Source of the DNA: an uncultured Clostridia bacterium
GTDB taxonomy: Bacteria > Bacillota > Clostridia > Christensenellales > Aristaeellaceae
Assembly: GCA_946408995.1 (NCBI GenBank)
Contig: CAMJUL010000005.1
Span: 1-64,000 of the forward strand
DNA length: 64,000 nucleotides
Direction: 5' to 3'
The first letter of the stretch is position 1; every line of letters begins with the position of its first letter. Under the pieces are notes generated by a model. It was not told the DNA's origin. It searched no databases and was given only the letters and a program-made list of their open reading frames with translations. Positions 46,157-63,860 of the stretch are shown in pieces. Position numbers and translations under genes: made by a program.

Positions 46157-46185
46157 TTTACAAAAAGGGGCCGGGAGGATATGAT
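46157..46185 (+). promoter_or_regulatory. Promoter of the DUF6273 gene
   Basis: TTTACA, 17 bases, TATGAT; 40 bases before the GTG start. Together with the riboswitch, its terminator and promoter, this fills the 335-base gap 45891-46225. Confidence 0.65.
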
Positions 46186-46225
46186 AGGGGCAGGAAAATC
46201 ATCCAGACGAAAAGGAGCTGAGATT

Positions 46226-47893
46226 GTGCGAAAAAGATGGATTTCGTGGCTGCTGGTCCTCCTGATCGCAATTCTGCCTGTCCAGGTCTATGGAACCACC
46301 CAGGAAGCGTGGAATGAAACCTGCCGATATAAAACCAGCAGGGACACGGCCGTTTATGACCGCACCGTTTCCGGTGCCTCCTCATATTTTTATCAGACGG
46401 ACATCCTTCCCGCGGGCACTTACATCAACGTGATCAGCGGAGAAACAAACGGGAAACGCAGGATCCTTTATTTGAAGGACGGAAAGGAAACGGTTGCCTG
46501 GCTGGACACGGACGCCTTTACCTCCGCCTTGAAAACCGTCATCGCGGCAGACGGAAATACCTATTCCCTTCCGGAAGCTGTCTGGGGAAATGAAACCGCT
46601 GTTCGCCGGTTCATGGCATCCTATTATACCCCCGATCAGATCCAGATGGTCCTCAACCAGATGTACGCAGAGGCACAGTCTTATGCCGTGCTTCCGGAAG
46701 ATAGCTGGACGTGCCCCGTCTGCGGACGCGCCGGAAACACGAATCTTTTCTGCCCGGAATGCGGAACAAGACGCGGCACCGTCCCCATGACCACGGTCCC
46801 TTATCAGAGGCCGGCTGTCTCCGTTGGAGAGGTTCTTCTGATCGGCAGATACGGCGGGGAAGAGCTTCTTTGGCAGGTAATTGGCGTTCAGGGCAGCAAA
46901 GTGCTCCTGCTCAGCCGCTATGGGCTTGAGAAAAACTGTTTCAACACCAATTGTGCCGGACAGACGTGGGAAAACTGTACCCTTCGCAAATGGCTCAACG
47001 GCGCTTTCCTCAGCCAGGCGTTTTCCGCCGCCGAGGCCCAGGCCATCCTGGAAACCTATGTCAACGAAGCGGAAGACCAGGCCTCCAAAGCATTCGCCCC
47101 GAAGCGGATCGGCGCGAGTACGTACGACCATCTGTTCCTCCTGAGCTACGCGGAGCTGACGGCATACCTGCCTTCCATCCGGGACAGGCAGTGCGTTCCC
47201 ACAGCACATGCCCTCGCGGAGGGCTGCAATTACAGCGATACCCTTCTGATAGACGGCCAGCCGGCCTGCTGGTGGTGGCTCAGGTCTCCCGCTTACAGAA
47301 ACAACGCCCTTGTCGTCAATGCCTCCGGCAACGTGGAGGCCTGTATGATGAGCCAGTCCTATGGCGCCGTTCGTCCGGTCATGTGGGTGGATGTGGATAC
47401 GCTTGACAGAAACGGAGAACTGTCCTTTGGAAGTCCTTACAGTCATGCTCCGGTACGCGTACCTGTGGGGACCTCCAATCCGGCTGCCCGCATCGCTACC
47501 CAGAACACGCCTTCCCCCACCCCCGGCGTACCGACCGCACAGCCGTCGCAAAAAGACGCCCGCCAGGAAGTATGCCGTTCGTTCATCCTCAATGCCCAGT
47601 ATCAGAGCTTCTCCGGCTCCTTTGACAGCGACAGGATCTCCTTCGCCCTGCACGATACAGACGGGGACAATGCGCCGGAACTTCTGGTCCACAATGGGGA
47701 AACGGAACAGGGAAGATCCCGCATTTATGTGGTTGCGCTCTACGACAACGGGTACCGTTTGCTCCAGGTTCTTACGCAGGATAAAGAACAGGTGATCTAT
47801 ACGGAAACCAACGGTTTTGTGGCAGACTTCTGGTCTCTTCAGAACATCCTCTCCTTTGGCTGGAACGCCTTCTTTGCTACGGCGAACCGCTGA
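46226..47893 (+). CDS. Secreted DUF6273 protein with a zinc-ribbon insert
   Basis: About 555 aa. Signal peptide (WISWLLVLLIAILPVQVYG), then an SH3-like segment (AVYDRTVSGASSYFYQTDIL), a zinc-ribbon CPVCG...CPECG near residues 162-182, a DUF6273 domain about 195-395 (TLRKWLNGAFLSQAF, FLLSYAELTAYL, WWWLRSP, VRPVMWVD), a Pro/Thr-rich linker and a C-terminal FALHDTDGDNAPELLV calcium-loop-like domain. DUF6273 resembles the formylglycine/C-type-lectin-like modules of cell-surface proteins. Start: GTG 46226 after AAAGGAGCTGAGATT; the track start lacks a site. Function unknown. Confidence 0.8.
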   Translation: MRKRWISWLLVLLIAILPVQVYGTTQEAWNETCRYKTSRDTAVYDRTVSGASSYFYQTDILPAGTYINVISGETNGKRRILYLKDGKETVAWLDTDAFTSALKTVIAADGNTYSLPEAVWGNETAVRRFMASYYTPDQIQMVLNQMYAEAQSYAVLPEDSWTCPVCGRAGNTNLFCPECGTRRGTVPMTTVPYQRPAVSVGEVLLIGRYGGEELLWQVIGVQGSKVLLLSRYGLEKNCFNTNCAGQTWENCTLRKWLNGAFLSQAFSAAEAQAILETYVNEAEDQASKAFAPKRIGASTYDHLFLLSYAELTAYLPSIRDRQCVPTAHALAEGCNYSDTLLIDGQPACWWWLRSPAYRNNALVVNASGNVEACMMSQSYGAVRPVMWVDVDTLDRNGELSFGSPYSHAPVRVPVGTSNPAARIATQNTPSPTPGVPTAQPSQKDARQEVCRSFILNAQYQSFSGSFDSDRISFALHDTDGDNAPELLVHNGETEQGRSRIYVVALYDNGYRLLQVLTQDKEQVIYTETNGFVADFWSLQNILSFGWNAFFATANR

Positions 47894-47912
47894 AACACTT
47901 GTCCCCAAATAT

Positions 47913-49093: not shown

Positions 49094-50482
49094 TCAGCGG
49101 ACCTTTTCCAGTTCCCCGAGGAGTTTTTCCCGCTGTGAGGTGCGAACCAGGAAACGTGCCCCATCCACCGACGCGGCATCATAGAAAAGATCATGGGCAA
49201 AAAAACGCACTGCCTTTTCCGTACCGTCCGTAAGCGTATAAAAAAGAGTCAGGGTTTCATTCCCCCCGGGAGGGGCGTAAAGCAGATCATCCACCGTCAT
49301 CCCGACAACGCAGCGATAGATTTCGGAATAGCGCTCAGGATCGACAGCCTGGCCGTCCAGGAAATACAGGGTTTCTTCCCCCTGGGCTTTCCTCTCCAGC
49401 AGATGCTCCCCGTTCTGGTGGACGATCTTCAGCGAACGAACAAGATCTGCCGAGATCAGATAGACGAAAGGATCCAGAAGCGCGTTTGGAGGACAGTCTT
49501 CCAAAAAGCGAATCTGGTCTGTTCCGACGGTGTACACCGCGTCGCTCCGGTCAAACCGGATGTATCTTTGCCCGGTTCCCGTATTTCCGCCAACAGTATA
49601 ATCCAGCACGCTTCCGTCCGAAAATGCGGCAAGCAGTCTTTTTCCCGTATCAAGGCCGAAGGCGCGCATCTCTTCCGGGGTCTGAACCGTCCCGGCGTAT
49701 CCTTCAGCGTGAAGGGCACAAATTCCTGTCACATATTTTTCAACGAAAGCGGTATTGGCGTCATGGGTAAATGGGGCTGTCATCTGCCATTTGGCAAGGC
49801 TTCCTTCCCTGCCTTTCCGCGTGAGGATCCAGGAGGTATCCCGGTCCACCAGGGCCGCCTGTACCGCGTATTCTGCATGCTGGACCGACGCGCCCGGCAG
49901 CGCATGAAGCGAATAAAGCGGCTGCGTCACTGTTTCATAAAAATCGCTTGGTGCCAGATAAACCGTTGTTTCCCCGGCGACGGCAACATAGCACCCCAGC
50001 TGGGGCGAGAGATAATTGCCCACCAGCAGGGTCAGCATCTCCTCCCCGGAATAGCGGAGGGTCAGTTTTGCCTTTGGCGGATTCAAACCGCAGGCCGTTT
50101 GGTCCAGGCCTTCCCACCGTGCGGTAACAGGCAGGTGCTGCGCTGCGACCATAAAGACCTGCCAGGCGTTCTCCTGCAGGGCGAAGCCAGGATGGTCCTG
50201 TACGGTAAGCGGCTGTCCAAGAACATTGTTGACCCCAAGAAGAAGGCCATCCTCAGAATAGACCAGGTCGCTTATAAGGGTATACCGCTCCTCAGGCAGT
50301 TCCAGCGTCAGGGACTGAAAGGATGGCAGCTTCCGTTCGTACAACATCTCATAGTTGGAGCGGACCGTCTGCTCATCTGCGAAAGGCCCAGTGCCCTGCA
50401 CAGGAACGCAAAGAAGCTGCCAAAGAAGAACAAGGCAGACACAGGCGGCCAAAAGGCAGAATAGTTTTCCTGTTCTGCGCAT
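49094..50482 (-). CDS. DUF4340 domain protein
   Basis: 462 aa. N-terminal membrane anchor (LFCLLAACVCLVLLWQLLCV), then the extracytoplasmic DUF4340 domain with repeated strands (LTLRYSGEEMLTLLVGN, YVAVAGETTVYLAPSDF) as found downstream of gldG-like genes. The family has no settled function; it is thought to be a periplasmic or cell-surface part of GldFG-type ABC complexes. Starts immediately after the GldG-like stop, last of the six-gene unit. Confidence 0.85.
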   Translation of the reverse strand: MRRTGKLFCLLAACVCLVLLWQLLCVPVQGTGPFADEQTVRSNYEMLYERKLPSFQSLTLELPEERYTLISDLVYSEDGLLLGVNNVLGQPLTVQDHPGFALQENAWQVFMVAAQHLPVTARWEGLDQTACGLNPPKAKLTLRYSGEEMLTLLVGNYLSPQLGCYVAVAGETTVYLAPSDFYETVTQPLYSLHALPGASVQHAEYAVQAALVDRDTSWILTRKGREGSLAKWQMTAPFTHDANTAFVEKYVTGICALHAEGYAGTVQTPEEMRAFGLDTGKRLLAAFSDGSVLDYTVGGNTGTGQRYIRFDRSDAVYTVGTDQIRFLEDCPPNALLDPFVYLISADLVRSLKIVHQNGEHLLERKAQGEETLYFLDGQAVDPERYSEIYRCVVGMTVDDLLYAPPGGNETLTLFYTLTDGTEKAVRFFAHDLFYDAASVDGARFLVRTSQREKLLGELEKVR

Positions 50483-51895
50483 TTACAGGCGCCTCCTTTT
50501 GATCAGGACTGCCGCCATCGTCAGCAGCAGGATGCACGGCAGCAAAGCAAGCAGAAAGATGGATGTCCGGATGCGCACCTGTTCATTTGGGAAACGGATG
50601 GTATGGGCAGGAAGGCGCTTGACCCCCGCATCCAGGGAATAGGTTACCTCCTGATGCGTCATCCGGAGCAGCATAGAAGAGATCAGGTCCAGGTTTTCGC
50701 TTGCATCCAGCCATTCCCCATCCCGGAGCATATCCGCGCTGCCAAGCAACAGAAAACGCATTCCGGCGCTGTTCCCCGCGTAAGCCCCCAAAAGGAACCC
50801 GCCTGTTACGTCCCCTTCCGCGCTTTGGTCCGCGCGGCCCGTGCTGTCCCTGTGGAGCACGGCGCGCCCGGAAGTGGATAAAAGCCGCTCCAGCGTAACG
50901 CCGGGACGGTAAAGGGGGGACGACAGAGCGGCCGCGTTTGGCAGGATCAGCCTGCCGGACAGGTTGTCTGCCAGGGATTGATCCCCCTCAAGCCTCGGAT
51001 TCAGCCATTCGACCCGGTCAATATACCGCTGCGTCTCCAAAGGGTTTTCAACCAACCAGCCCTGTTCCATACCAAGCCCATACAAAGAGCACACGGCCTG
51101 AAGCCTCGAAAGACCAGAAACCGGCGTACCCGATCCGAAGGACAGGAAAAACGCTCCTCCGCGGTCAAGGTGATCCGCGAGCATCAACTGTTCCCTTTCC
51201 GTAAGGTCCGTCCTGGGGTCGATCATCAGCAGCACATCGTTCGGCTCGGCGGTAAAGTTGCTCAAATTCGCGGTGATGACCCGTAATCCAACGGCATTGA
51301 GCTGCAGCGAGAGGGAGGTGCAGTCCTGCTCGCCAGTCTCGCCATGCCCGCTGAGGAACACTGCGCGCGCGGCAGATGGACTGCTTACATGGGAAACAGC
51401 GCCGATCACACGGGCTTCCCCTGTATAAATGGTGTAGATCTCCTCCCCGATCCTGGTTGAAAAGAGCAGTTCGGAGGGAAGGATCCGTACGGTACGGGTG
51501 CCGTCACTGCCGCGCACAAACAGGGTCCCTTCTTCCACCAACGTGCTTCCGTTCAGGGAAAGGAGGCGCTGTGGTTCCCCGGCGGGATTCACCTCCGCCG
51601 TTTTCAGATTGGGATTGATCGAACGCATGCGGCTCAAGGTTTCCTGCACCAGGTCCAAAAGGGAAGAATGTGTACCGGGCGTATGCACCAGGTAAACAGA
51701 AACCTCCGTGTCAAGGGATTTCAGTTTTTCCGTGGTATAATCGCTCAAAGCCGAAAGACGGTCCGGGGACAAATCCCATTTGAGATACCAGCGGTCCTCC
51801 GCCGCCTGAAAGCAAAGACACAGCAAGATGCAGAAGATCACCGCAAGAAGACACAGCAGCAGGTTGTAAAGGGGAAAACGCATGCCTTTATTCAT
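50483..51895 (-). CDS. GldG-family ABC transporter auxiliary protein
   Basis: 470 aa. Membrane anchor near the N-terminus (YNLLLCLLAVIFCILLCLCF), LSDYTTEKLKSLDTEVSVYL as in gliding motility GldG, an IFT52/GldG-like domain (AVFLSGHGETGEQD, DVLLMIDPRTDLTERE), and a C-terminal membrane helix (SIFLLALLPCILLLTMAAVL). In Bacteroidetes GldG works with GldA and GldF; in Bacillota the role is unknown. ATGA overlap with the permease gene. Confidence 0.86.
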   Translation of the reverse strand: MNKGMRFPLYNLLLCLLAVIFCILLCLCFQAAEDRWYLKWDLSPDRLSALSDYTTEKLKSLDTEVSVYLVHTPGTHSSLLDLVQETLSRMRSINPNLKTAEVNPAGEPQRLLSLNGSTLVEEGTLFVRGSDGTRTVRILPSELLFSTRIGEEIYTIYTGEARVIGAVSHVSSPSAARAVFLSGHGETGEQDCTSLSLQLNAVGLRVITANLSNFTAEPNDVLLMIDPRTDLTEREQLMLADHLDRGGAFFLSFGSGTPVSGLSRLQAVCSLYGLGMEQGWLVENPLETQRYIDRVEWLNPRLEGDQSLADNLSGRLILPNAAALSSPLYRPGVTLERLLSTSGRAVLHRDSTGRADQSAEGDVTGGFLLGAYAGNSAGMRFLLLGSADMLRDGEWLDASENLDLISSMLLRMTHQEVTYSLDAGVKRLPAHTIRFPNEQVRIRTSIFLLALLPCILLLTMAAVLIKRRRL

Positions 51896-52626
51896 CCCGC
51901 CCGCCTCCTTTGATGCTTGCGCGCCTCAAGCAAACGTGTCGTCAGAAACAGCATCAGAAACGAAAAAACAAGGTAATAGACCAGGTCCGATAGGCTCAGA
52001 ATGCCGTTGGCAAAATCCCCGAGCCTGTCCTGCCCGGGAAGGGCGGAAAGAAGACCGCCAAGAACGTTCCACGGCCGATTCGTCAACTGAGGCTGGATAT
52101 AATGCTCATTCAGATACAGAAATACGTTGATGCCAAGGGTTAGGACGCCGGCGGTCATCTGATTGAAACACAGGGAGGAGATCAGCAATCCGACGGAAAG
52201 CAGGGAGGTCCCCAGCAGATAATAGCCCAAATAAGTGCAAAGCGTCTCAAGAACGGAGATCTGCGCGAACCGTGAGATCACCAGGGTGTAAAGCCCTGTC
52301 AGGAGCATTGCGATCAAAAGCATGACGCAAGCAGCAAGAAACTTGCCAAATACGATCGCGCCTGTCCGGACCGGAAGGGTAAACAGCAGCTGATCGGTAC
52401 GCATGCGCCTCTCCTCCGCGAAAAGACGCATGGTCAAAAGCGGCGCGATCAAAAGAAACGGCAGATGCATGGCGGAAAGCATCACGTTCATGCTCGCGCT
52501 CATTTCCTGCCCAATGTTGACAAAAACAAACACAATCCCGGACAGAAGGGTATACATTGCCAGAAACACGTACCCGACAGGAGTCGCGAAATACCCGTGC
52601 AGTTCCCTGAGAAAAAGCGTCTTCAT
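51892..52626 (-). CDS. ABC-2 type permease, GldF-like
   Basis: 244 aa, six predicted membrane helices. FLRELHGYFATPVGYVFLAMY is the usual GldF/ABC-2 opening, and LLTMRLFAEERRMRTDQLLFTLPV is the cytoplasmic loop near helix 2. It exports an unknown substrate with the adjacent ATPase. Overlaps both neighbours by four bases. Confidence 0.9.
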   Translation of the reverse strand: MKTLFLRELHGYFATPVGYVFLAMYTLLSGIVFVFVNIGQEMSASMNVMLSAMHLPFLLIAPLLTMRLFAEERRMRTDQLLFTLPVRTGAIVFGKFLAACVMLLIAMLLTGLYTLVISRFAQISVLETLCTYLGYYLLGTSLLSVGLLISSLCFNQMTAGVLTLGINVFLYLNEHYIQPQLTNRPWNVLGGLLSALPGQDRLGDFANGILSLSDLVYYLVFSFLMLFLTTRLLEARKHQRRRAG

Positions 52627-53549
52627 GATTCCGGCGCTCCTTTCCCGGTCAAACGGAGAAACGCATCTTCCAGTGTTTCTTTTTCGTCCCGCATTTCCGC
52701 CAAAGCGCCTTTCATTTTTTTGAATGCCTCGTACACTGCCGGGCCGCAGTCAGCTTCCGGCCGGTAGCGGATGACGATTTCATCCCCTTGTCTGGATACG
52801 GAAAGGATCCCAGGCAGGGAGGAGACCGCCTCCATAGAGGCGTCCTCCCCCTGATACCGTACACGCAATTCGCCCTTTTTCCGAAGAAGGGCGGACAGCG
52901 GACCATCGTAAACAGCCTGTCCTTCCTCCAGGACCAGCGCCCTTGAGCAAATGCCCGTAAACTCACTAAGCATATGGGAGGAAAGCAGCACCGTGCTTGT
53001 TTCGCCTGCCTGCCTGATCACATCCCGCATCTGCACCATCTGAAGCGGGTCCATGCCGCTTCCGGGCTCGTCAAGGATCAGCAAGGGAGGGCTGCCAAGC
53101 AGCGCCTGGGCCAGTCCCAGCCGCTGCCGATACCCCTTGGACAGGCTTCCGCTCAGCCTGTTTGCCCAGTTTCCCAGACCGGCCGCGGCAATCACCCGTT
53201 CCGTTTCGCTTTTCTTTTTTGATTCAGGGATCGGCTTCAGGTCCGCGCAGAACCGCAGATATTCCTTAACCGTCATGTCCGGGTACAGAGGAGGCTGCTC
53301 CGGAAGGTATCCGATACAGGCGCGCGCCTTCAGGGAGTCCTCCGTCATGTCGTGGCCGCAGATCCTCACCTGCCCGGAAGTGGGGGCAAGATAACCGGTC
53401 AGGATATTCATCAGGGTGGATTTGCCTGCGCCGTTCCGGCCCAGCAGCGCGATGATCTCGCCCGGACTTGCCGTAAAGGAAACCTCACGAAGGGCGTCCC
53501 TTTTCAGATAGCGCTTGCAGATCCGTTCAGCCTTCAGGAGACACATCAC
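52623..53549 (-). CDS. ABC transporter ATP-binding protein, GldA-like
   Basis: 308 aa. Walker A LLGRNGAGKSTLMNILTG, Q-loop CIGYLPEQPPLYPDM, signature LSGSLSKGYRQRLGLAQALL, Walker B LLILDEPGSGMDPLQM, H-loop LSSHML. The C-terminal extension is as in GldA/CcmA exporters. GTG 53549 or ATG 53546 is the start, inside the end of the AraC-sensor gene (overlap of 23 bases) with AAGGAGG upstream, so translation is coupled to it. Confidence 0.92.
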   Translation of the reverse strand: MMCLLKAERICKRYLKRDALREVSFTASPGEIIALLGRNGAGKSTLMNILTGYLAPTSGQVRICGHDMTEDSLKARACIGYLPEQPPLYPDMTVKEYLRFCADLKPIPESKKKSETERVIAAAGLGNWANRLSGSLSKGYRQRLGLAQALLGSPPLLILDEPGSGMDPLQMVQMRDVIRQAGETSTVLLSSHMLSEFTGICSRALVLEEGQAVYDGPLSALLRKKGELRVRYQGEDASMEAVSSLPGILSVSRQGDEIVIRYRPEADCGPAVYEAFKKMKGALAEMRDEKETLEDAFLRLTGKGAPES

Positions 53550-55779
53550 TTCCGGGTTCCTCCTTGCTTCGTTTGAACTGCATGGGCGTCATCCCTACTT
53601 TTTGCCGGAACCGTCTGATAAAGGAACCGGCGTCATAATACCCGACCGCCTCGGCGATTTCCTTGACGGAAAGATCCGAATTTACAAGGAGATCCTTGGA
53701 ATGTTCAACCCTCAGCATGGTCAGGTACTCAAGCGGGGTGACCCGCATTTTGCTTTTAAAGAGCTGTGAAAGCCTTGCGTTTGGCATGTTGAAGGTCTCG
53801 GCGATGGCGCTGATGGAAAGCTCCTTGTCGTAGTAATGCGTGTCGATATAGCCGACGACACGGTCCATCAGGTCACCGGATGCCTCATCCGGCTCGGCAG
53901 GGGCGCTCCCCTCCCCACAGGAAAGGATAAAATGGCACAAACGTCTCAGCAGTTCGCTGACATCATCCATGCTGGCACACCCGGAAAGCATGAGGATATC
54001 GTAAACCTCCTGTGCCCCGCGTTCCCTGCTCAGCGCGTCCATATGCTCCTTGAGAAGCGTCTCTATGACGTTGTTGTATATCAGCCTGAAGGAGAAGGAA
54101 GACATGCTGTTCCGTTTTAAAAAATGCAGCAGCTCGGCGATCTTGCTGTTGAGCAGATCCTCACTGCGAAGCAGGAGGGCCTGATGAATCCCTTCCGTAA
54201 TCCGCTGTGCCTGCGGAAGGATCTCTCCGAAATTCGTGGGAATGCTCCCGTAAAACAGCGGCTTGTCGGCATCCATGACAAACCGGTTGTCATAGGTGGC
54301 TGCCGCCTCAAGGTAGGCGCTGGAGACCTCGGAAAAGTCCTCATGGATCCCAGAGATCGTCGTTACCGCCTGGCCGCTCTGTTCCTGGGTACGGCGGTGG
54401 ATCTCCTCCGCCATGGAAACAAGGGCCTCCTGGCTGTCTGCAAATACGAGGTACAAAATGGCGTCCAGGGCCACAAGCTCCGTCCCGCAGGCGCATACGC
54501 CCGGGATTGGGCAGTCGCCACCCGCAAATACCATGGGCTGCCTCCCGGCCTCCTGGTCAAAGCAAAGCACAACCGCGTAGTATTTCCGGTCGATCTTTAA
54601 TTCGACTCCGGCCGCGGCCTGAAGCGCATCCTGCCTGGTCGGATAGTGGTTTTTCAGGAAGCTGAGGACAAAATCGTGTCTGCGCATGGGCAGCGCGTTT
54701 TCCAGCTGGATGCTTAGGGCCGCATTCTGCCTGGAGAGCTCGCTGATGCCCTGCTTGATTTTCTGCCATTCATCCCCCTGTTTTTCCTCAGAGGAAAGCA
54801 GGCTTGATATCTCATGGACCGGCTGCCAATTGCGTCGGGCCAGCCGATAGGCAATGAAAAACGCCAGGAGACTTCCAACGGCCAGGATGATCAATCCCCC
54901 GCTCAGATTGGCGGCAAGGGATGCGGCAAGATCCCCGCTCCGGATCAGGGAAACATACTCCATGCTCCAGCCGGGCACCGTTACACGGGAAAGAATGTAT
55001 TCGTCCCCCTGGAAACGGAAGGCGTCCAGGCCACTGACCATGGCTGAGCGGATCTCCTCGTCCGGAATTGAATAGCTGCACGAGGAAACAAGCGTCCGAT
55101 CCCGGTAAAAAATATACGTATTGTTCTTTGTGGCGATGGCATCAGAGAACATTTCGTCAAACACGGTCTTGCGAACCAGAAACATCAGGCATCCCCGTTC
55201 CTCCCGAAGCATGCCAAAGGGCATAAAATACGTGATGATGGGTTCGCTGCTGCCGTCGAGCAGCGTTCCCTGGACCCGCTGAGCAGGAAGAATGGTCAAT
55301 TCCTCGGAGCCATGCAGCACGCTTTCCAATTGGGAAGCGGAGAAATGCTCAAAGTGGGTCAGACTGGTCAGCGCGTCCAGCGTCATGGAATTCTGCGAAG
55401 AGTAAATATGGCTGTCGATGGCAAAGCAGAGGAACATCCTTTCGCAGAAAGTATTTGTGGCTGCATATAAGGAAAGGTATTTCATCAGCTGATACGCCAT
55501 GTCGGGGTGTTCCTGAAAGACAAAAGCCTTGATAAAGGGGGAAATGCTCATCTGGTCCGCAGTATTCTGCATGGCCGTCAGGTATTCGCCGTGACGTTCC
55601 GCGATGCGGGCAAGGCGGTTGAACTGGCTGTTCCTCGCCTCCGTCCACATGGAATCATAGGTGCGCAGCGTCATAAAGAAAGAAAAAACGACCGCCAGCA
55701 GCACGATGACGATGATATAGGAGAACAGGAGCCTTTTAAAGGCGCCAGACTGAAAGAAGGATCGCTTCCCTCCGGTCAT
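53527..55779 (-). CDS. Membrane-anchored AraC-family regulator with extracellular sensor domain
   Basis: 750 aa. TM1 about residues 17-38 (LFSYIIVIVLLAVVFSFFMT), extracytoplasmic Cache-like domain 40-285, TM2 about 290-312, a cytoplasmic linker domain, and the C-terminal AraC DNA-binding domain about 640-742 (LSISAIAETFNMPNARLSQLF; VKEIAEAVGYYDAGSFIRRF). A one-component transmembrane regulator found beside Lpl-type sugar importers. It overlaps the binding-lipoprotein gene by four bases (ATGA); probably senses ligand directly or via that lipoprotein and controls the divergent lpl operon. Confidence 0.88.
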   Translation of the reverse strand: MTGGKRSFFQSGAFKRLLFSYIIVIVLLAVVFSFFMTLRTYDSMWTEARNSQFNRLARIAERHGEYLTAMQNTADQMSISPFIKAFVFQEHPDMAYQLMKYLSLYAATNTFCERMFLCFAIDSHIYSSQNSMTLDALTSLTHFEHFSASQLESVLHGSEELTILPAQRVQGTLLDGSSEPIITYFMPFGMLREERGCLMFLVRKTVFDEMFSDAIATKNNTYIFYRDRTLVSSCSYSIPDEEIRSAMVSGLDAFRFQGDEYILSRVTVPGWSMEYVSLIRSGDLAASLAANLSGGLIILAVGSLLAFFIAYRLARRNWQPVHEISSLLSSEEKQGDEWQKIKQGISELSRQNAALSIQLENALPMRRHDFVLSFLKNHYPTRQDALQAAAGVELKIDRKYYAVVLCFDQEAGRQPMVFAGGDCPIPGVCACGTELVALDAILYLVFADSQEALVSMAEEIHRRTQEQSGQAVTTISGIHEDFSEVSSAYLEAAATYDNRFVMDADKPLFYGSIPTNFGEILPQAQRITEGIHQALLLRSEDLLNSKIAELLHFLKRNSMSSFSFRLIYNNVIETLLKEHMDALSRERGAQEVYDILMLSGCASMDDVSELLRRLCHFILSCGEGSAPAEPDEASGDLMDRVVGYIDTHYYDKELSISAIAETFNMPNARLSQLFKSKMRVTPLEYLTMLRVEHSKDLLVNSDLSVKEIAEAVGYYDAGSFIRRFRQKVGMTPMQFKRSKEEPGSDVSPEG

Positions 55780-57341
55780 TTTTCAGCCTCCCCCGTTCTT
55801 CCGGTATGACGGTTGTAGATCTGCTGATAAAGCTCCCGGTATTCCAGCGCGCCCTCGGCTTTCAGATCCTCTATAAAAGCGTCAAACGCCTGATCCGTAA
55901 CGCCGTGAACAACAGCATTCACGATAAAATCATCCACAACCGTCTTTATGCGTTTTTTCAGCTGTGTCAGACGGGCCGATTCCTGACTGGTTTTCGCCGA
56001 TTCCACCGTCAGCACCTTTTCCGAAACGGGCTCCAGCACGCCAGATGCGTCATAGGCCTCGCAATACCCGCTTTTTTCCACCCGATGCGGCGCGGGCACG
56101 TATACAGAACGGTAATACTCCTTCGGCGCAAAAAACTGGCCGCAGATAACGGGAACGATCTCGTACAGCCGGTTGGCCTCCGGAACGGCGATCACCTGGT
56201 ATCTGCCGTCCTCCCCCCGCTGGAGCATTTCCCCCACCGGGCCATTTTGGGAAACAAGCATGGTTTCCGTATCCATCTGGGCATCCAGCCAGCGAAGGGA
56301 AGCGGGGATATCCCGGTTTTGGATGGTGAGCGCAGCGCCGAATTCAACGGTATCCTTGATCCTGGATAGGCGCGCATCGTATCCATCGGCGTGCACCGGA
56401 AGCATGCAGACGAACTGGGACGCGATCCCGGCCTGCAGGGCCGTATTGCCCAAGCGCCAGTAACTGAAAAAGCCGGCCGTATTCCGGTTCACTTTCGCGC
56501 TCCACAGGTTGGAACCCTGCGTAATGCTTTCCACGTCCAGAAGCTTTTCCTCGCAGAGAAGATGCATCCATTCCGCCGTTTCGCGGAAGCCGTCCTGAAA
56601 CGGCGCAAAACGGACGATGCCGTCTGAACCCGCGAAGACGAAATCTTCATTCATCGGGATCCCCCAGGCACTGAAAAGATTATACAGCCCCGTATTACAG
56701 TCATCCAGGGTCGCTTCATAAGGGACCTCGTCCTTCAGCCCGTTGCCGTTTGGATCCCCGTCCCGGAAGGCGCGGAGCACGTCCGTAAGCTCGCGGACGG
56801 TCGTCGGAACCTCAAGGTGCAGGCGGTCCAGCCATTGCCGGTTGATAAAAAAATGCCCGTTAACGCTGACATCCTGGGAAAGAAGAAAACCGACATAGTA
56901 ACAACGCCCATCAGAGGAGGGAATGACCTCCGCCATATCGCTCTCCGCAAGCCTTGCGGAATAGACCGGCATGTATTCCTTCAAATACGTATCAAGCGGC
57001 ACAAGAAGGTGACGATTGACGCCGTATTCCTCGGTATCCAGAGAACCCCGAAGGACAAGATCCTTGTATTGTCCGGAAGCAAACATCAATTGCTGACGGT
57101 TCTTCCATTCGGCGTCCCTGACCGTTTCAAACTCCACATGCACATGGGTCTTCTCTTCCAGTTCCCTGTAAAACCAGAGATTCGCAAAATCAATGGCCTG
57201 GTTCTCCAATTCGTATTGGAGGGCCGTTAGATCTGTTTTTCCTTCCGTCCTGACGGCAGGATCCGGCGCGCACCCGGACAGGAGCACGGTCAAAGCCAAC
57301 AGCAGAAATGCAAAAAAGCGGTTTCTCCTTGATGTTTTCAT
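55776..57341 (-). CDS. Sugar-binding lipoprotein (LplA-like), paralogue of 59659-61164
   Basis: 521 aa. Clear lipoprotein signal ending LLSGC, then LTALQYELENQAIDFANLWF, the same opening as the binding protein of the divergent operon; further matches (EEYGV, LLVPLDTYL, VPTTVRELTDVLRAF, EVPYE) are spread along the length. Unlike the paralogue it is coupled to a membrane AraC sensor, not to permeases. It may serve as the sensor's ligand-presenting partner or compete for the same permeases. Confidence 0.88.
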   Translation of the reverse strand: MKTSRRNRFFAFLLLALTVLLSGCAPDPAVRTEGKTDLTALQYELENQAIDFANLWFYRELEEKTHVHVEFETVRDAEWKNRQQLMFASGQYKDLVLRGSLDTEEYGVNRHLLVPLDTYLKEYMPVYSARLAESDMAEVIPSSDGRCYYVGFLLSQDVSVNGHFFINRQWLDRLHLEVPTTVRELTDVLRAFRDGDPNGNGLKDEVPYEATLDDCNTGLYNLFSAWGIPMNEDFVFAGSDGIVRFAPFQDGFRETAEWMHLLCEEKLLDVESITQGSNLWSAKVNRNTAGFFSYWRLGNTALQAGIASQFVCMLPVHADGYDARLSRIKDTVEFGAALTIQNRDIPASLRWLDAQMDTETMLVSQNGPVGEMLQRGEDGRYQVIAVPEANRLYEIVPVICGQFFAPKEYYRSVYVPAPHRVEKSGYCEAYDASGVLEPVSEKVLTVESAKTSQESARLTQLKKRIKTVVDDFIVNAVVHGVTDQAFDAFIEDLKAEGALEYRELYQQIYNRHTGRTGEAEK

Positions 57342-57689
57342 GGCATTTCCTTCAGCGTTCGTTCTGTTCGCCCTTTCGTGCAGACAAAGATCCGTTCCAA
57401 ATAAGCCGCACAGAAGGCAAAGAGCCTTGTTTCAGGGGATTTTTGCTTTTTCTGTTTGATAATTATACAGGAAAAACGTCCAAAAGGGAATAGGCAGAAC
57501 TTTTGCCAATGCCCCAAAGGGCTTCATTCGGACCTTCCAGGCGATATGCGCAATAATTTTGTCTATTTTCAAGCGGTAAAAAACATGCTATTATATGACC
57601 AGATAAACAAAATGAAGCACAGCACGCGTTCCGTTTTTGACGGAACTGTTCTCTCGGATCCAGATTCGACCAATGGAAGGAGGATCCTT
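57342..57689. promoter_or_regulatory. Divergent promoter region between the AraC/Gld and lpl operons
   Basis: A 348-base gap with no gene. Reverse-strand TATAAT at 57462-57467 is the likely -10 for the lipoprotein operon; its -35 is poor, which suits activation. Forward TTTTCA-17-TATTAT with a TGC extension at 57566-57594 fits the lpl operon. No clear operator repeat found by eye. Confidence 0.55.
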
Positions 57690-58646
57690 ATGCAGGTCTC
57701 CCCCAAAAAGAACACGCGTTCCAAGCCACCGCTCGCCACCCGTTTTGCAAAGGCCGTTTACCGGGACTGGCAGCTCTGGGTTTTTTTGCTGCCCGCACTG
57801 CTGTTCTTCCTTTTTTTCTGCTATTTTCCCATGTATGGCGTGCAAATCGCCTTCAAGGATTACAAGGCAGCCTTTGGTATCATAGGGAGCAAATGGGCCA
57901 ATCCCTGGTTCAAGCATTTCAGGACCTTCTTTAATTCCTTCTACTGCGGAAGGATGTTCGCAAATACCTTCCTTTTGAATCTATATGGCCTTTTGGTCGG
58001 GTTCCCGGTCCCCGTGCTGCTGGCCATCCTGCTCAATCAACTGACGCACAAAAGGTTCAAGGGATTCGCCCAGACCGCCATTTATGTGCCCCATTTCATT
58101 TCCACGGTGGTTCTTGCCGGCATGATCTATCTGTTCTTTTCCCCTTCCAGCGGGATCGTCAACAAAGCCATTGAGGCCTTCGGAGGAAAAGCGATCTACT
58201 TTATGCTGGAGGAAAAATGGTTCCGTCCGCTCTTTATTGGGTCGGATGTGTGGCAGAACGCTGGATGGAACACCATCCTTTATATCGCGACGCTGACCAG
58301 CATCGATCCGCAGCTGTATGAGGCCGCCACCATTGACGGCGCATCCCGCTTTCAGCGTATCCGGCATATTGACCTGCCCCACCTGATCCCCATCTGCGTG
58401 ATGATGCTCATCCTCAACTGCGGCTCCCTCCTGTCTTCGGATACCAACAAAGCCCTGCTTCTGCAGACCAGCGGAAACATCAAGACTTCTGACATTATCG
58501 GCGTTTATGTATACAACACAGGCATCGGCAAGGCGCAGTACAGTTACACCTCCGCCATAGGGCTGTGCCTGAATGTGATCAATTTCGCCATTATCATTCT
58601 CGTTAATACCATCTCCCGCAAGGTAAGCGAAATCAGCCTGTTCTGA
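57690..58646 (+). CDS. ABC sugar importer permease LplB-type
   Basis: 318 aa, six membrane helices. WVFLLPALLFFLFFCYFPMYG is helix one and QLYEAATIDGASRFQRIRHIDLP the EAA loop that contacts the ATPase. The start at ATG 57690 has AAGGAGGATCC just upstream; the track ORF adds 78 non-homologous residues. First gene of a permease-permease-binding-protein set. Confidence 0.93.
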   Translation: MQVSPKKNTRSKPPLATRFAKAVYRDWQLWVFLLPALLFFLFFCYFPMYGVQIAFKDYKAAFGIIGSKWANPWFKHFRTFFNSFYCGRMFANTFLLNLYGLLVGFPVPVLLAILLNQLTHKRFKGFAQTAIYVPHFISTVVLAGMIYLFFSPSSGIVNKAIEAFGGKAIYFMLEEKWFRPLFIGSDVWQNAGWNTILYIATLTSIDPQLYEAATIDGASRFQRIRHIDLPHLIPICVMMLILNCGSLLSSDTNKALLLQTSGNIKTSDIIGVYVYNTGIGKAQYSYTSAIGLCLNVINFAIIILVNTISRKVSEISLF

Positions 58647-58667: not shown

Positions 58668-59594
58668 ATGACAGCAGCACCGCATACCGGTACCCGGATC
58701 CGCGAGACAAAGCAGGACCGGATCTTCAATTTTTGCAATACGGTTTTCTGGGTCATCGTACTTCTCATTGTGCTTTATCCCCTTTGGCTGATCATTGTAG
58801 CCTCGGTATCCGATCCGGACGCCGTTCTGGCAGGTAAGGTTTTTTTGTGGCCGGTCAATTTCTCCACCATGGGGTATGACGCTGTATTCCAGTACAGCGA
58901 ACTGTGGGGCAGTTATCTGAATTCCATCTTCTATACCCTGGTGGGCGGCGGACTGAGCGTCTTTGTGACAATGATGGCAGCCTATGCCCTCAGCCACCGC
59001 TTTTCCGGCAAAAAGTTTGTAAACCTTGCCATTACCTTTACGATGTTTTTTTCCGGCGGCCTGATCCCCATCTTTCTGAACGTCCGGGATCTTGGCCTGT
59101 ACAATACCCGCACAGTGATGATCCTGATCAACCTGGTATCCGTTTGGAACCTGATGGTGGCCCGCACTTATATCCAGTCTTCCATCCCCTATGAAATGTA
59201 TGAGGCAGCCACCATTGACGGCGCAGACCATTTTACCTATTTCTTCCGCTGCGTTCTCCCCTTGTCCGGCACCATTCTTGCGGTCCTTGCCGTTTATTAC
59301 GGGGTCGCCAGGTGGAATGACTATTTTACAGGGCTGGTCTTTTTGCGGGACCGCACCAAATTCCCTCTCCAGACCGTTTTGAGGGAAATCCTGGCTTCGC
59401 TCTCCGTCGGCAATTCGGATACGTTTTTTGAAGCCTACGCCGACAACCTTGGCGGACTGCAGGAAGCCCTGCGGAAAGCTGAAGTCGCCAAATACTGCTG
59501 TATTGTCGTTTCAACGGTCCCCTGTGTCGTCCTGTACATCTTTATGCAGAAATTCTTTGTCAAAGGGGTCATGATCGGATCCCTGAAAGGCTGA
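58668..59594 (+). CDS. ABC sugar importer permease LplC-type
   Basis: 308 aa, six membrane helices. NFCNTVFWVIVLLIVLYPLW is helix one; EMYEAATIDGADHFTYFFRC is the EAA loop and MQKFFVKGVMIGSLKG the usual C-terminal end. Partner of the LplB-type permease 21 bases upstream. No ATPase is encoded with them. Confidence 0.93.
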   Translation: MTAAPHTGTRIRETKQDRIFNFCNTVFWVIVLLIVLYPLWLIIVASVSDPDAVLAGKVFLWPVNFSTMGYDAVFQYSELWGSYLNSIFYTLVGGGLSVFVTMMAAYALSHRFSGKKFVNLAITFTMFFSGGLIPIFLNVRDLGLYNTRTVMILINLVSVWNLMVARTYIQSSIPYEMYEAATIDGADHFTYFFRCVLPLSGTILAVLAVYYGVARWNDYFTGLVFLRDRTKFPLQTVLREILASLSVGNSDTFFEAYADNLGGLQEALRKAEVAKYCCIVVSTVPCVVLYIFMQKFFVKGVMIGSLKG

Positions 59595-59658: not shown

Positions 59659-61164
59659 ATGAAAAGAATCGCAGCATTGTTTCTGGCACTGATGATGCTT
59701 TCCTGCGGCCTGGCCGTGGCCGAAGAGAAAGTCAACCTGACCGCTTTCCAGTATGAGCTGGACAACCAGAGCACCGATTTCAACCAGATCTGGTACTTCA
59801 AGATGATCGAGGAACTGACCAATGTGCACGTGGACTTCCGTATGGTGAAGGATTCCGATTTCGACATGCAGGTGAACCTGATGTTCGCTACGCCCAATGA
59901 AATGGAAGACATGATCCTTCGCCGCAGCGTGGATGTGGAAGAATACGGTGTCTCCCAGGGCCTGCTTCTGCCGCTGGATCAGTATCTGACGGAAGACCTG
60001 ATGCCCAACTATGTCAGCCGTCTGAACATGAACGAGGCCAATGCTTCCATTCCCGCCTCCGACGGCCAGAGCTACTTCATCGGCTATCTGCTGGCGCAGA
60101 GCGTAAATCATGAACCCACCTGGTATATCAATGTCGATCTCCTCGCCAAGCTGGGTCTTGAAGTTCCCACCACCATTGAAGAATACACCAATGTGCTGCG
60201 GGCCTTCAAGGCGGACGGCATCAAGTACCCGCTTGCCACCGCCTTTACCGATTATGGCCCGGAAACCCTCTGGTACCAGTTTGCTTCCTTCGGTGTGCCG
60301 ATCAACGTGCAGACGTTCCTCTTCATCGACAAAGACGAAAAGGTTGAGTTCGCCGGTTTTGCAGACGGTTTCCGCGCCGGGCTCGAATGGCTGCACAGTC
60401 TGTATGAGGAAGGCCTGCTGGATCCCGAATCCCTGACGCAGGATTCCAACCTCTGGGCCAATAAGGTCAACGCGGGCGAGGTTGCCTCCTTCAATTACCT
60501 GCGCCTGATCAACACCGCCCTGACCCCCGACACCTATGCCCACTTCAAATCCATGCTTCCTCCTGCCGCCGAAGGCTACAAGGTCGCGGTCCCCAGCGTT
60601 CTGGAAGTTCCGGAAGCCGGTGCCTACCTGACCAGCACCAACCCGAATCCCGAAGCCTCTCTTCGCTGGATCGATGCGCAGCTGGAAACCGAGAACATGT
60701 ACGTAGCCCAGAACGGACAGATGGGTGAACATCTGAAAGTCAACGATGAAGGAAAATACGAAGTCATCTACGTGCCTGAGAACAATGGCCTGTATCAGAT
60801 CGTTCCTGTTTCCATGGGCCAGTTCTTCGCCCCCGGCGATTTTCAGAGCGCGCATTATCAGATGGCTCCGCATCGCGTGGAACGCTATGAGGACAGCAAG
60901 ACCTACGCTGCCGCCGACGTACTGGAGTACAAGTCTTTCCACTACCTGTCCAAGCTCAGCAAGATGAACAATGAGGATTCCGTGGAAGCCGCCAACATTT
61001 ACACCGAACTGAAGAAATTCATGGGTGAATCTGTGGTTGACTTTGTCAAGAGCGGCGTGACGGACGCTTCCTTCAACGAGTTTATGAACAATGCCAAGTC
61101 CCTTGGCGTGGATCGCTACATTGAACTGTATCAGGCCGCGTATGACGCCTATATGGCAAAATAA
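59659..61164 (+). CDS. Extracellular sugar-binding protein (LplA-like)
   Basis: 501 aa. Signal peptide KRIAALFLALMMLSCGLAVA; the cysteine context (MLSCG) is a poor lipobox, so cleavage after AVA is equally likely. LTAFQYELDNQSTDFNQIWY opens the mature protein. Codon use is more biased towards frequent G/C-ending codons than in its neighbours, as expected for a highly expressed binding protein. GAAAGGAG precedes the ATG. Binds an unknown oligosaccharide; clustered with a secreted CE15-like esterase. Confidence 0.92.
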   Translation: MKRIAALFLALMMLSCGLAVAEEKVNLTAFQYELDNQSTDFNQIWYFKMIEELTNVHVDFRMVKDSDFDMQVNLMFATPNEMEDMILRRSVDVEEYGVSQGLLLPLDQYLTEDLMPNYVSRLNMNEANASIPASDGQSYFIGYLLAQSVNHEPTWYINVDLLAKLGLEVPTTIEEYTNVLRAFKADGIKYPLATAFTDYGPETLWYQFASFGVPINVQTFLFIDKDEKVEFAGFADGFRAGLEWLHSLYEEGLLDPESLTQDSNLWANKVNAGEVASFNYLRLINTALTPDTYAHFKSMLPPAAEGYKVAVPSVLEVPEAGAYLTSTNPNPEASLRWIDAQLETENMYVAQNGQMGEHLKVNDEGKYEVIYVPENNGLYQIVPVSMGQFFAPGDFQSAHYQMAPHRVERYEDSKTYAAADVLEYKSFHYLSKLSKMNNEDSVEAANIYTELKKFMGESVVDFVKSGVTDASFNEFMNNAKSLGVDRYIELYQAAYDAYMAK

Positions 61165-61178
61165 GTCCGTACAGTCTG

Positions 61179-61206
61179 CCCGGGTCTCTCATGACCCGGG
61201 TTTTTT
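61179..61206 (+). terminator. Terminator after the binding-protein gene
   Basis: CCCGGGTC-tctcat-GACCCGGG plus six T, 12 bases before the esterase ribosome site (AAAGGAG). It probably reduces esterase expression relative to the binding protein, since I see no new promoter in between. Confidence 0.92.
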
Positions 61207-61230: not shown

Positions 61231-63801
61231 ATGAAATCCGGGATATTTCGGGCCATTTTGGCCTCCTTTACGGCCCTGTGCCTGTTGATCGGCCAGGCGG
61301 GGGCTGTCAATGACAGCCATATCCTGACCTATACCGATCCCTATGACGCCCAGGCTTATCCTCCAAACCAGGCAAGCGCTGCCTTTACGCAGGACAAGAT
61401 CCTTCTTGACGGACTTCGGGACGATGGCTACGGGATCGCCACTTCATCTTCCGTTTCCTTCGCGATCCCTATAAATAAAGAATACCATGCTCCTGCGTCC
61501 GGCGTTTTGACCGCGGTATGGAATGGACCTTTGCTCTATTTGCTGGTGGAAGTCAAGGACACAACAAGAGCGCGCACGCCGACAGAAGAAGGACCGACCG
61601 GTGACAATCCGGCCGCCCCTGGACAGACCGACAGCGTAACTTTTGCCTTTGACCTTTACAACGATAAGGTCAATTTCGGCACAGACACCACCGGCGCCTT
61701 TACGGTGGATGCCAATGGAAAGCTGCATTTTTTCCATAGCGGGATGATTTCTTCTCAAAGCTCCGTCCTTGCCGACCCCGAAGCGCCGGAATATACCGGA
61801 CGTCTTGCGGGGTGGGCAGCAACGGAAACCGATGAAGGGTACAACGTCGAGATCGGTCTGCACCTGGAGGAGCTGGGGGATCTTCAGGAATACCATATGG
61901 GGCTTGAAGTCGTACTAAATGACGCGCATATCCCCAGCGAAGCGGAATCCATTCTTCCGGAACCCTCCGGAGATCCCTTTGCCCCTGCCCCAAAGCTGCC
62001 CTCAACGGTGGACGGGCGCGTGTTCTGGAGCCATCAAATGCAGGAACTGTACGCCGTCATTGACGAATCCAACCCCAACGGATTGGATTGGGGGGTCCTC
62101 ACCCTGACCGGGTGGGACGGAACGGCTCCGTTCGCCTACAGTGACTGGCGTATAACCAATACCCTGCGCTATATCGACTCCCTGGCCTTCGCCAAAGGCG
62201 TCTATACCGAAGCGACCCAGCGCCGGCTGGATGAGGCGGTTGCCAGGGCACAGGAGCTGCTTGACAACAGCGAAAAGGACAAGGCGCAGACAGACACAGC
62301 GGCCGACGAACTGCTTGCCGCTTTGAAAGGACTTCGCTGGGCCGACGAACGGTACCCGGATCCATTTGATCTGCCTGAGGTGTTTACGCTTCCGGATCCA
62401 TATCGGTTTTTTCTGAGTGAACGAAGGGTGGAAACCGTTTCCGATTGGGCAGAACGGCGTTTGGAAATCCTGGATCTGGCGCAGTTTTATGAATACGGTT
62501 ATAAGCCTGACGCTCCGGAAAGTCTGTCTGTCGAAGCCATATCGCATTTTGAACCCGGAGAAGTCCGTTCTGTTCTTTTCTGGGGCTTCTGGCCGATGGA
62601 TGTGCCGGTTACCTGTCCTACGGACATCGTCACGGTCAGAATCACGGACCATGGCGTTTCCGCCACCCTTGATTTTACCGTGTATCTGCCAACGCAGGTG
62701 CAGCTGCTTTCCGCCGGCGTTTCAGGCAAATCCCCTGTGGTCCTCTCCTATGACGGAGATAACGAGACGTACCGGAATGCGGGCTTTGCGGTCGTGGAAG
62801 TTCCATCCGGCAGCGGTGGAGACGGCCGGACAAACGAGTATGCCTGGGGCGTACGCACGGGGGCCTTCTATGAACTGTATCCCTATTCAAGGAACGGAAA
62901 AGAAGCCCTCAAGGAGGTCAGCAGTGAAATGGCTGCTGCCTGGAGCGCCTCCAGGGTCCTTGATGCCCTTGCGATCATCGCGGACAGTTCTTTGCCGTAT
63001 GCCGATGAAATCGCCGCCGGCACGGATGCGGATCGAGCAGCGGTAAGTGGTTTTTCCATCAACGGAAAATATGCCTTTGTGGCGGCGGTCTTTGATGAAA
63101 GGATCGACGTCTGCATCCCCGGTGCGGCAGGCGCAACCGGGCCTTCCCCCTGGCGGTATGTATACACAGGCCATGTCTATGACTGGACAAATACCCTCTT
63201 TGCTCCGGGCGAAGGGGTCCAAGCCCCCGCTCTTCAGGTCTCCTGGGGCACGGAAACCCTGGGAAACAGCGTAAGGCATAACCGTGTCCGGGAAACCGAA
63301 GTGTTCCGCAAATTCCTGACCCCGGGCAATTTCTATCAGCGACTTCCCGGTGCGTGGGGATATGCCGCCCGCCTTCCCTTTGACCAGAATGACCTGGTGT
63401 CGACATTGGCCCCAAGAGCGATCGTACTTGTCAACACCGTCAACGATTACAACGACGGCTGTGAGGCGGATGCGCTTGGTCTGGAAGCAGCCAAGTCTGT
63501 TTACCGGAACCTGGGATATGACGCGGATGAGCTGGTCAAATTCAACTATCGTTCTGTCCAGGACGGCGATCCGCACGGCACGGATACGCTTCAAACCAAG
63601 CGGACCGCGGAATACCTGCGTCATTATTTCTTTGGCACGCAGCTAACGGACGATGTAGCCCATTGGCTGAATACAGATCCCTTCCTGCTGCCAGTCAGCG
63701 AGGGGGCATCGCCATTTGAAACCTATTATGGCGGCTTTAACACCATCACCGGTGGCCATGCCTCGGAAGATGGATGGTATTTTACAAAACTGAAAGATTG
63801 A
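61231..63801 (+). CDS. Secreted CE15-like (glucuronoyl) esterase with CBM9-like and FIVAR-like modules
   Basis: 856 aa. Signal peptide (ILASFTALCLLIGQAGA); CBM9-like beta domain about 50-240 (ILLDGLRDDGYGI, LLYLLVEVKD, DSVTFAFDLYND); FIVAR-like helices about 330-370; then a CE15 esterase. Canonical CE15 has GCSRNGKGA with the nucleophile, here GFSINGKYA (Ser near 608), so the oxyanion-stabilising Arg is Ile. The usual xESGxGG, which carries the catalytic Glu, reads GAAGATG. NTVNDYND near 735 may offer the alternative Asp; DPHGTD near 781 the His. It would cleave ester links between glucuronoxylan and lignin, if active. Confidence 0.85.
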   Translation: MKSGIFRAILASFTALCLLIGQAGAVNDSHILTYTDPYDAQAYPPNQASAAFTQDKILLDGLRDDGYGIATSSSVSFAIPINKEYHAPASGVLTAVWNGPLLYLLVEVKDTTRARTPTEEGPTGDNPAAPGQTDSVTFAFDLYNDKVNFGTDTTGAFTVDANGKLHFFHSGMISSQSSVLADPEAPEYTGRLAGWAATETDEGYNVEIGLHLEELGDLQEYHMGLEVVLNDAHIPSEAESILPEPSGDPFAPAPKLPSTVDGRVFWSHQMQELYAVIDESNPNGLDWGVLTLTGWDGTAPFAYSDWRITNTLRYIDSLAFAKGVYTEATQRRLDEAVARAQELLDNSEKDKAQTDTAADELLAALKGLRWADERYPDPFDLPEVFTLPDPYRFFLSERRVETVSDWAERRLEILDLAQFYEYGYKPDAPESLSVEAISHFEPGEVRSVLFWGFWPMDVPVTCPTDIVTVRITDHGVSATLDFTVYLPTQVQLLSAGVSGKSPVVLSYDGDNETYRNAGFAVVEVPSGSGGDGRTNEYAWGVRTGAFYELYPYSRNGKEALKEVSSEMAAAWSASRVLDALAIIADSSLPYADEIAAGTDADRAAVSGFSINGKYAFVAAVFDERIDVCIPGAAGATGPSPWRYVYTGHVYDWTNTLFAPGEGVQAPALQVSWGTETLGNSVRHNRVRETEVFRKFLTPGNFYQRLPGAWGYAARLPFDQNDLVSTLAPRAIVLVNTVNDYNDGCEADALGLEAAKSVYRNLGYDADELVKFNYRSVQDGDPHGTDTLQTKRTAEYLRHYFFGTQLTDDVAHWLNTDPFLLPVSEGASPFETYYGGFNTITGGHASEDGWYFTKLKD

Positions 63802-63820: not shown

Positions 63821-63860
63821 AAATACACAGGGACCGGGTGAACCCGGTCCCTGTGTATTT
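63821..63860. terminator. Long bidirectional terminator
   Basis: AAATACACAGGGACCGGG pairs perfectly (18 bp) with CCCGGTCCCTGTGTATTT around a TGAA loop; A-rich and T-rich ends suit both the esterase and a converging gene. Confidence 0.88.

Follow-up and report, generated by a model that had tools for sequence, protein, structure and literature searches.

A CE15 protein of an uncultured Clostridia bacterium belongs to a clade with isoleucine in place of the hallmark arginine

The Arg residue that follows the nucleophilic Ser is regarded as a hallmark of CE15 catalysis, and few exceptions are known. A gene in the window, which is the whole stretch of 64,000 nucleotides analysed here, encodes a CE15-like protein with Ile at this position, raising the question of how its active site is built and which ester it cleaves. 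We propose, with moderate confidence, that the protein is a secreted CE15-fold serine esterase that de-esterifies uronic acids of the plant cell wall, most likely pectic ones (galacturonate/rhamnose). In the proposed mechanism, the CBM9 module would anchor the enzyme to the plant wall, and Ser609, activated by His782 and Asp739, would attack the ester carbonyl to form a uronoyl-enzyme intermediate, which would then be hydrolysed. The uronate would be held by Lys613 and Glu690. At the oxyanion site, the backbone NH of Ile610 would remain, and Arg533, located beside the Asp that formerly locked the Arg, probably provides the positive charge. The freed sugars would then be imported by the adjacent Lpl-type transporter.

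Domain organization of the encoded protein

The sequence aaggag, about 10 nt upstream of the ATG, is plausible as a ribosome-binding site, and the open reading frame is organized as follows.

61231..63801, plus strand: CDS of 856 aa, with signal peptide, CBM9, helical linker and CE15 domain
61231..61305, plus strand: signal-peptide-like N-terminus, residues 1-25, read from the sequence as a basic start, a hydrophobic stretch and an AxA-like end
61408..61926, plus strand: CBM9 module, Pfam match (PF06452) at residues 60-232, the fold reaching to about residue 293
62146..62328, plus strand: helical linker, residues 306-366, from Pfam score and AF2, three helices predicted
62347..63798, plus strand: CE15 alpha/beta-hydrolase domain, residues 373-856, from Pfam, sequence and fold matches

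The preliminary description had assigned a CE15-like fold to this protein, and it is indeed a CE15 member by both fold and sequence profile. The CE15 profile PF22244 scores 92.8 bits against a curated cut-off of 27, the AF2 model of the domain has a pLDDT of 94 and a pTM of 0.95, and the top 42 PDB matches of the model in Foldseek are CE15 structures without exception (42/42). No NCBIfam model matches the protein. The CBM9-like module that had been described is confirmed by a CBM9_1 (PF06452) score of 29 bits against a cut-off of 23.4 and by the AF2 model of the N-terminal part (pLDDT 91), whose best PDB matches are the CBM9 structures 1i82 (Foldseek E 3.7e-12) and 7nwn. A FIVAR-like module had been proposed as well; it was dropped because FIVAR (PF07554) reaches only 18.6 bits in the linker, below the Pfam gathering score of 29.2 (20.4 bits in one relative, L045).

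Active-site residues and the GxSI clade

To assign the active-site residues, OtCE15A of Opitutus terrae was placed in the domain alignment, its residue numbering agreeing with that published (PMC6937553). The features that bear on catalysis are the following.

62821..62847, plus strand: inserted loop Asp531-x-Arg533...Trp539, adjoining the equivalent of OtCE15A Asp207; candidate site of a relocated oxyanion Arg
63049..63069, plus strand: nucleophile elbow GFSINGK, with Ser609, Ile610 for Arg, and Lys613 (alignment)
63124..63126, plus strand: Ala632 at the canonical catalytic Glu site (OtCE15A Glu290, Ser+23; alignment)
63274..63309, plus strand: clade motif RHNRVRETEVFR, residues 682-693, in which Glu690 corresponds to the uronate-binding OtCE15A Glu305
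63445..63447, plus strand: Asp739, probable catalytic acid, equivalent to OtCE15A Asp356 and RfCE15 Glu677 (alignment and spacing)
63451..63453, plus strand: Asn741 for the uronate-contacting Trp (OtCE15A Trp358; alignment)
63574..63576, plus strand: His782, catalytic base, conserved in 42/42 clade domains

The motifs in the reading frame are G607-F-S609-I610-N-G-K613, I629-P-G-A632-A-G-A-T-G and N735-T-V-N-D739-Y-N-D742. In the alignment, Ser267, Arg268, Lys271 and Glu290 of OtCE15A correspond to Ser609, Ile610, Lys613 and Ala632, respectively, and Asp356 and Trp358 to Asp739 and Asn741; the pairing of Glu305 with Glu690 falls in a gapped stretch and is of moderate confidence, less certain than the other pairs. 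Neither the Glu nor the Arg is thus present at the equivalent position, and both losses that had been read from GFSINGK and GAAGATG stand. The canonical Glu position is occupied by Ala in 40 and by Gly in 13 of 53 ORFs, some of which occur in two collections, and never by an acidic residue.

An Asp in NTVNDYND had been suggested to take over as the catalytic acid, and Asp739 is the best candidate. RfCE15-like relatives have Glu at Ser+112 and His at Ser+149, the same spacing as Ser565, Glu677 and His714 of RfCE15 (PMC11345330), and the column of this Glu holds Asp739, which is therefore very likely the acid, as judged from alignment and spacing. The acid would thereby occupy one of the two known CE15 positions, completing a triad of Ser609, His782 and Asp739 that we infer to be functional. 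In the scheme of Ernst et al., the protein fits the CE15-A subgroup, which carries the acid after beta-8, where Asp739 is present, and no acid at the earlier position, here Ala632. Loss of the canonical Glu is not an unusual trait in its own right, as it is common in bacterial CE15 proteins, including CkGE15A, RfCE15 and L004, a GxSR paralogue in the genome of the window. In MZ0003, Asp332, the acid that corresponds to Asp739, has been confirmed by mutation (PMC5722869). Because Glu loss with the acid on another loop is ordinary, only the loss of the Arg is unusual.

The Arg loss is a trait of a whole clade, which lifts the protein above a single odd sequence. All 46 species-genome loci found in a collection of 84,980 species carry GxSI, with Ile at the elbow position, and of 200 genomes sampled from the family to which the window belongs, 6 encode a homologue at 49-68% identity. 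The motifs hold throughout, down to relatives of 34-36% identity, and are thus neither chance nor sequencing error; a sequencing or assembly error behind GxSI is ruled out by its fixation. In a tree of 73 CE15 domains, the 42 GxSI domains form one clade with a support of 100/100 and a stem of 1.65 changes per column, and the GxSI state requires a single change, compared with a mean of 23.9 after shuffling. Where the clade attaches among the remaining CE15 groups is uncertain, since long branches come together there, a problem flagged by the tree program. Members come from at least six phyla (Bacillota, Actinomycetota, Chloroflexota, Acidobacteriota, Verrucomicrobiota and Pseudomonadota), several of those behind this count being metagenome bins. 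SLH, dockerin, InlB-type repeats or Ig/cadherin domains lie C-terminal to CE15 in relatives, which are thus surface or dockerin-borne proteins. Two clade genes are disrupted, one by an in-frame stop (L047:5797-9351) and one by being spread across several frames (L079:5605-8400); each is either a decayed gene or a sequencing error.

The equivalents of Ser609, Asp739, His782, Lys613 and Glu690 are invariant in 42/42 clade domains, the Ser and Lys being those of the GxSRxGK elbow, and such invariance over six phyla speaks for a working enzyme under selection. How the clade manages without the Arg is a weighty question because the R268A mutation of OtCE15A lowers kcat more than 80-fold and traps the acyl-enzyme (PMC8933493). 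In OtCE15A, Asp207 locks Arg268 in place (PMC6937553). At the probable equivalent of this residue, all 42 clade domains carry an Asp, followed by one or two further residues, an Arg and, a few residues later, a Trp, in a stretch that is mostly gapped in the controls. Of two alignments, one sets Asp531 a single column away from Asp207 and the other places it in an invariant Asp column. Residues that the clade conserves and the controls lack include Arg533, Trp539, His683, Asn684, Arg687 and Arg693. This pattern suggests that the guanidinium was relocated to the Arg533 loop to serve as the oxyanion arginine. The replacement charge may instead come from Arg682, Arg687 or Arg693 of the RHNRxRExE motif, with the chemistry otherwise unchanged, since no clade domain lacks any of the three, and controls have neither Arg687 nor Arg693. 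We regard this as somewhat unlikely: in OtCE15A, Arg268 is contacted by the Asp207 loop (PMC6937553), which is the loop of Arg533, and the alignment matches RHNR to the loop on the sugar side that bears Glu305.

The cost of R268A in OtCE15A could also be taken to mean that the protein is a non-catalytic or near-inactive relative that merely binds wall polysaccharide, and some CE15 members do show little or no activity on model substrates (PMC11096219). However, a dead enzyme would lose the Ser, Asp and His that are invariant over six phyla, which makes this reading very improbable. A whole Arg-less clade makes oxyanion stabilization directly testable by comparing natural with mutant enzymes.

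Gene neighbourhood and the probable substrate

The CE15 gene lies downstream of transporter genes, arranged as follows.

53527..55779, minus strand: AraC-type regulator, kept beside CE15 in close relatives
55776..57341, minus strand: second solute-binding protein, a paralogue (43% identity) of the gene at 59659
57456..58646, plus strand: LplB-like permease, named from sequence character; the listed start is TTG, the true start probably lying further in
58668..59594, plus strand: LplC-like permease, named from sequence character
59659..61164, plus strand: solute-binding protein of AlgQ / 5g5y type, directly upstream of the CE15 gene

The two paralogous binding-protein genes are divergently oriented, with the one permease pair between them. 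Binding protein and regulator adjoin CE15 in two close relatives, and permeases and binding protein do so in L062, where homologues of the LplB-like and LplC-like permeases are 66% and 64% identical, respectively. A terminator-like hairpin with a T-run at 61178-61201, between the binding-protein and CE15 genes, may keep CE15 expression below that of the transporter, and a second inverted repeat was seen by eye 3' of the CE15 gene at about 63826-63857. Adjoining the AraC regulator, consecutive minus-strand genes at 49094-53549 encode an ABC ATPase, an ABC-2 permease, an ABC_transp_aux-like protein and a DUF4340 protein, together resembling an exporter of the gliding-type ABC systems. At 46181-47908, two long ORFs of 570 aa (plus strand) and 508 aa (minus strand) overlap on opposite strands, and the minus-strand one has no Pfam match.

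No glycosidase is present at the window's own locus. The neighbours of CE15 were surveyed within 15 kb in 29 clade-bearing genomes, which are not fully independent and in which many contigs are short. Five of 16 strong matches to the LplD alpha-galacturonidase lie within this distance (G205, G206, G207, G217 and G219), and the best PDB match of the LplD genes is 3fef (E 7.5e-143). GH43 is near CE15 in 5/16 (G168, G205, G206, G217 and G219), RhaA in 2/15, GH28 in 1/30 and GH10 in 1/57; proximity of GH4 versus GH10 differs with a Fisher p of 0.0015, subject to the same incomplete independence of genomes and shortness of contigs. A xylan context, sought through GH10 neighbours, thus appeared once in 57. 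Individual loci add further detail: the neighbours in L047 are a mannitol-dehydrogenase-family (UxaB-like) protein, an altronate dehydratase, a rhamnose isomerase and a class II (RhaD-like) aldolase, and genes of rhamnose and galacturonate catabolism lie near CE15 in L070. GH43 stands behind the regulator in L081, a GH10-like gene is the neighbour in L062 and GH26 in L060. The window's genome contains six GH28 matches and encodes, on contig C35 (L114:2137-4758, minus strand), an 873-aa GH43-GH28 fusion whose GH43 part is a homologue of the GH43 proteins encoded next to CE15 genes of the clade in other genomes. RhaA and LplD are absent from this genome, and the case for pectin therefore depends on relatives.

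From these neighbour genes, pectic uronate esters are the favoured substrate. A pectic role has been proposed for other CE15 enzymes (PMC10807430), and the clade suggests that Gram-positive bacteria have CE15 enzymes acting on pectic uronate esters. The preliminary description had considered a shift to another ester, which is possible; the neighbour genes suggest that the change concerns the polysaccharide (pectin) rather than an acetyl or feruloyl ester. Of the residues lining the glucuronate pocket of OtCE15A (Lys271, Glu305 and Trp358), Lys and Glu are kept and Trp is replaced in 42/42 domains, its column holding Asn in 37/42 and Trp in 0/42. When OtCE15A holds galacturonate in the flipped pose, O4 lies close to Trp358 (PMC6937553); we speculate that Asn in place of the Trp might make room for a chain-internal galacturonate.

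Retention of the uronate-pocket Lys and Glu also suits an ordinary glucuronoyl esterase acting on the lignin-glucuronoxylan ester, slower or differently tuned through replacement of the Arg, as in OtCE15B and BeCE15A. The CBM9-CE15-SLH order matches that of the xylan enzyme CkXyn10C-GE15A (PMC8280721), GH10 genes occur in 22/29 clade-bearing genomes, and L062 has its GH10-like neighbour. However, the whole clade lacks the Trp that binds the 2-OH of glucuronate, alpha-galacturonidase is near CE15 far more often than GH10 is, and a glucuronoyl esterase would be redundant given L002, a separate CE15 in the same genome with both Arg and Glu present. This alternative is therefore unlikely. Because the CE15-type elbow Arg and the glucuronate Trp are both missing, the name glucuronoyl esterase is unwarranted without an assay.

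Still less likely is an esterase of CE15 fold that acts on acetyl, feruloyl or other acyl esters and has a backbone-amide oxyanion hole, as in most alpha/beta-hydrolases. Most alpha/beta-hydrolases, CE7 relatives included, have no Arg after the Ser (PMC6937553), MZ0003 cleaves p-nitrophenyl acetate (PMC5722869), and the loss of the Trp in the clade would be compatible with such an activity. In contrast, the uronate-binding Lys613 and Glu690 are invariant, and the nearest folds are all glucuronoyl esterases, with no acyl esterase among the first 42 PDB matches. For the pectic reading, a broader picture can be put forward tentatively: the clade may be a widespread, deeply branching CE15 lineage whose oxyanion Arg moved from the position after the nucleophile to the inserted D-x(1,2)-R...W loop, next to its former Asp partner, and which lost the glucuronate-contacting Trp, giving a pectic (galacturonate) esterase. 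If this is true, a catalytic residue was relocated within one fold alongside a change of substrate.

Comparison with known CE15 enzymes

For many CE15 members, the natural role has yet to be established (PMC11096219, PMC10807430). A search confined to the open-licence PMC literature yielded no description of the GxSI clade, no characterized member of it and no case in which Arg loss together with an Asp on the later loop is fixed across a deep clade. Other residues than Arg after the Ser have been reported: Tyr in OtCE15B, with markedly reduced activity (PMC6069808), Phe231 in BeCE15A, which keeps Glu253, is weakly active and is killed by F231R (PMC8417218), and Tyr in PrCE15 and likewise in 26/35 anaerobic-fungal enzymes (PMC11345330). 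These enzymes resemble the clade in lacking the Arg, but none has Ile, and BeCE15A and PrCE15 retain the canonical Glu, which the clade lacks. The precedents are single enzymes or an anaerobic-fungal group, whereas the loss described here is a whole-clade trait. Two further Arg-less CE15 relatives were observed, L003 (G000:C46) in the window's own genome, with GCSHAGK and PSDPGGAG, and L110 (G214:C142), with GCSTGGK and Asp at the canonical Glu site; published work thus seems to understate how often CE15 proteins lack the Arg.

CkGE15A, part of CkXyn10C-GE15A of Caldicellulosiruptor kristjansonii (PDB 7nn3), is the best match in both sequence (E 1e-26) and fold (E 5e-27, 27% identity). Like the window protein, it has CBM9 before CE15, is surface-anchored and lacks the canonical Glu, but it differs in its GFSRYGK Arg, in a xylanase on the same chain and in having no Arg533/Trp539 insertion. 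The second-best match, RfCE15 (CesA of Ruminococcus flavefaciens, PDB 8tse), has its acid Glu677 after beta-8 in the Asp739 column, but the acid is Glu rather than Asp, and Arg and Trp are retained. OtCE15A shares the fold and the equivalents of Ser, His, Asp356, Lys271 and Glu305, whereas its Arg268, Glu290 and Trp358 are all missing from the window protein. PvCE15-type enzymes of pectin loci in Bacteroidota have a pectin gene context and an acid at the Asp site (Asp353), but unlike the clade they retain Arg265 and Trp355, and in vitro they mostly favour glucuronate esters (PMC10807430). The fold, the alternative acid and the loss of the Arg as Tyr or Phe are thus known from other CE15 enzymes, and what sets the protein apart from these precedents is Ile in place of the Arg, as a deep clade trait.
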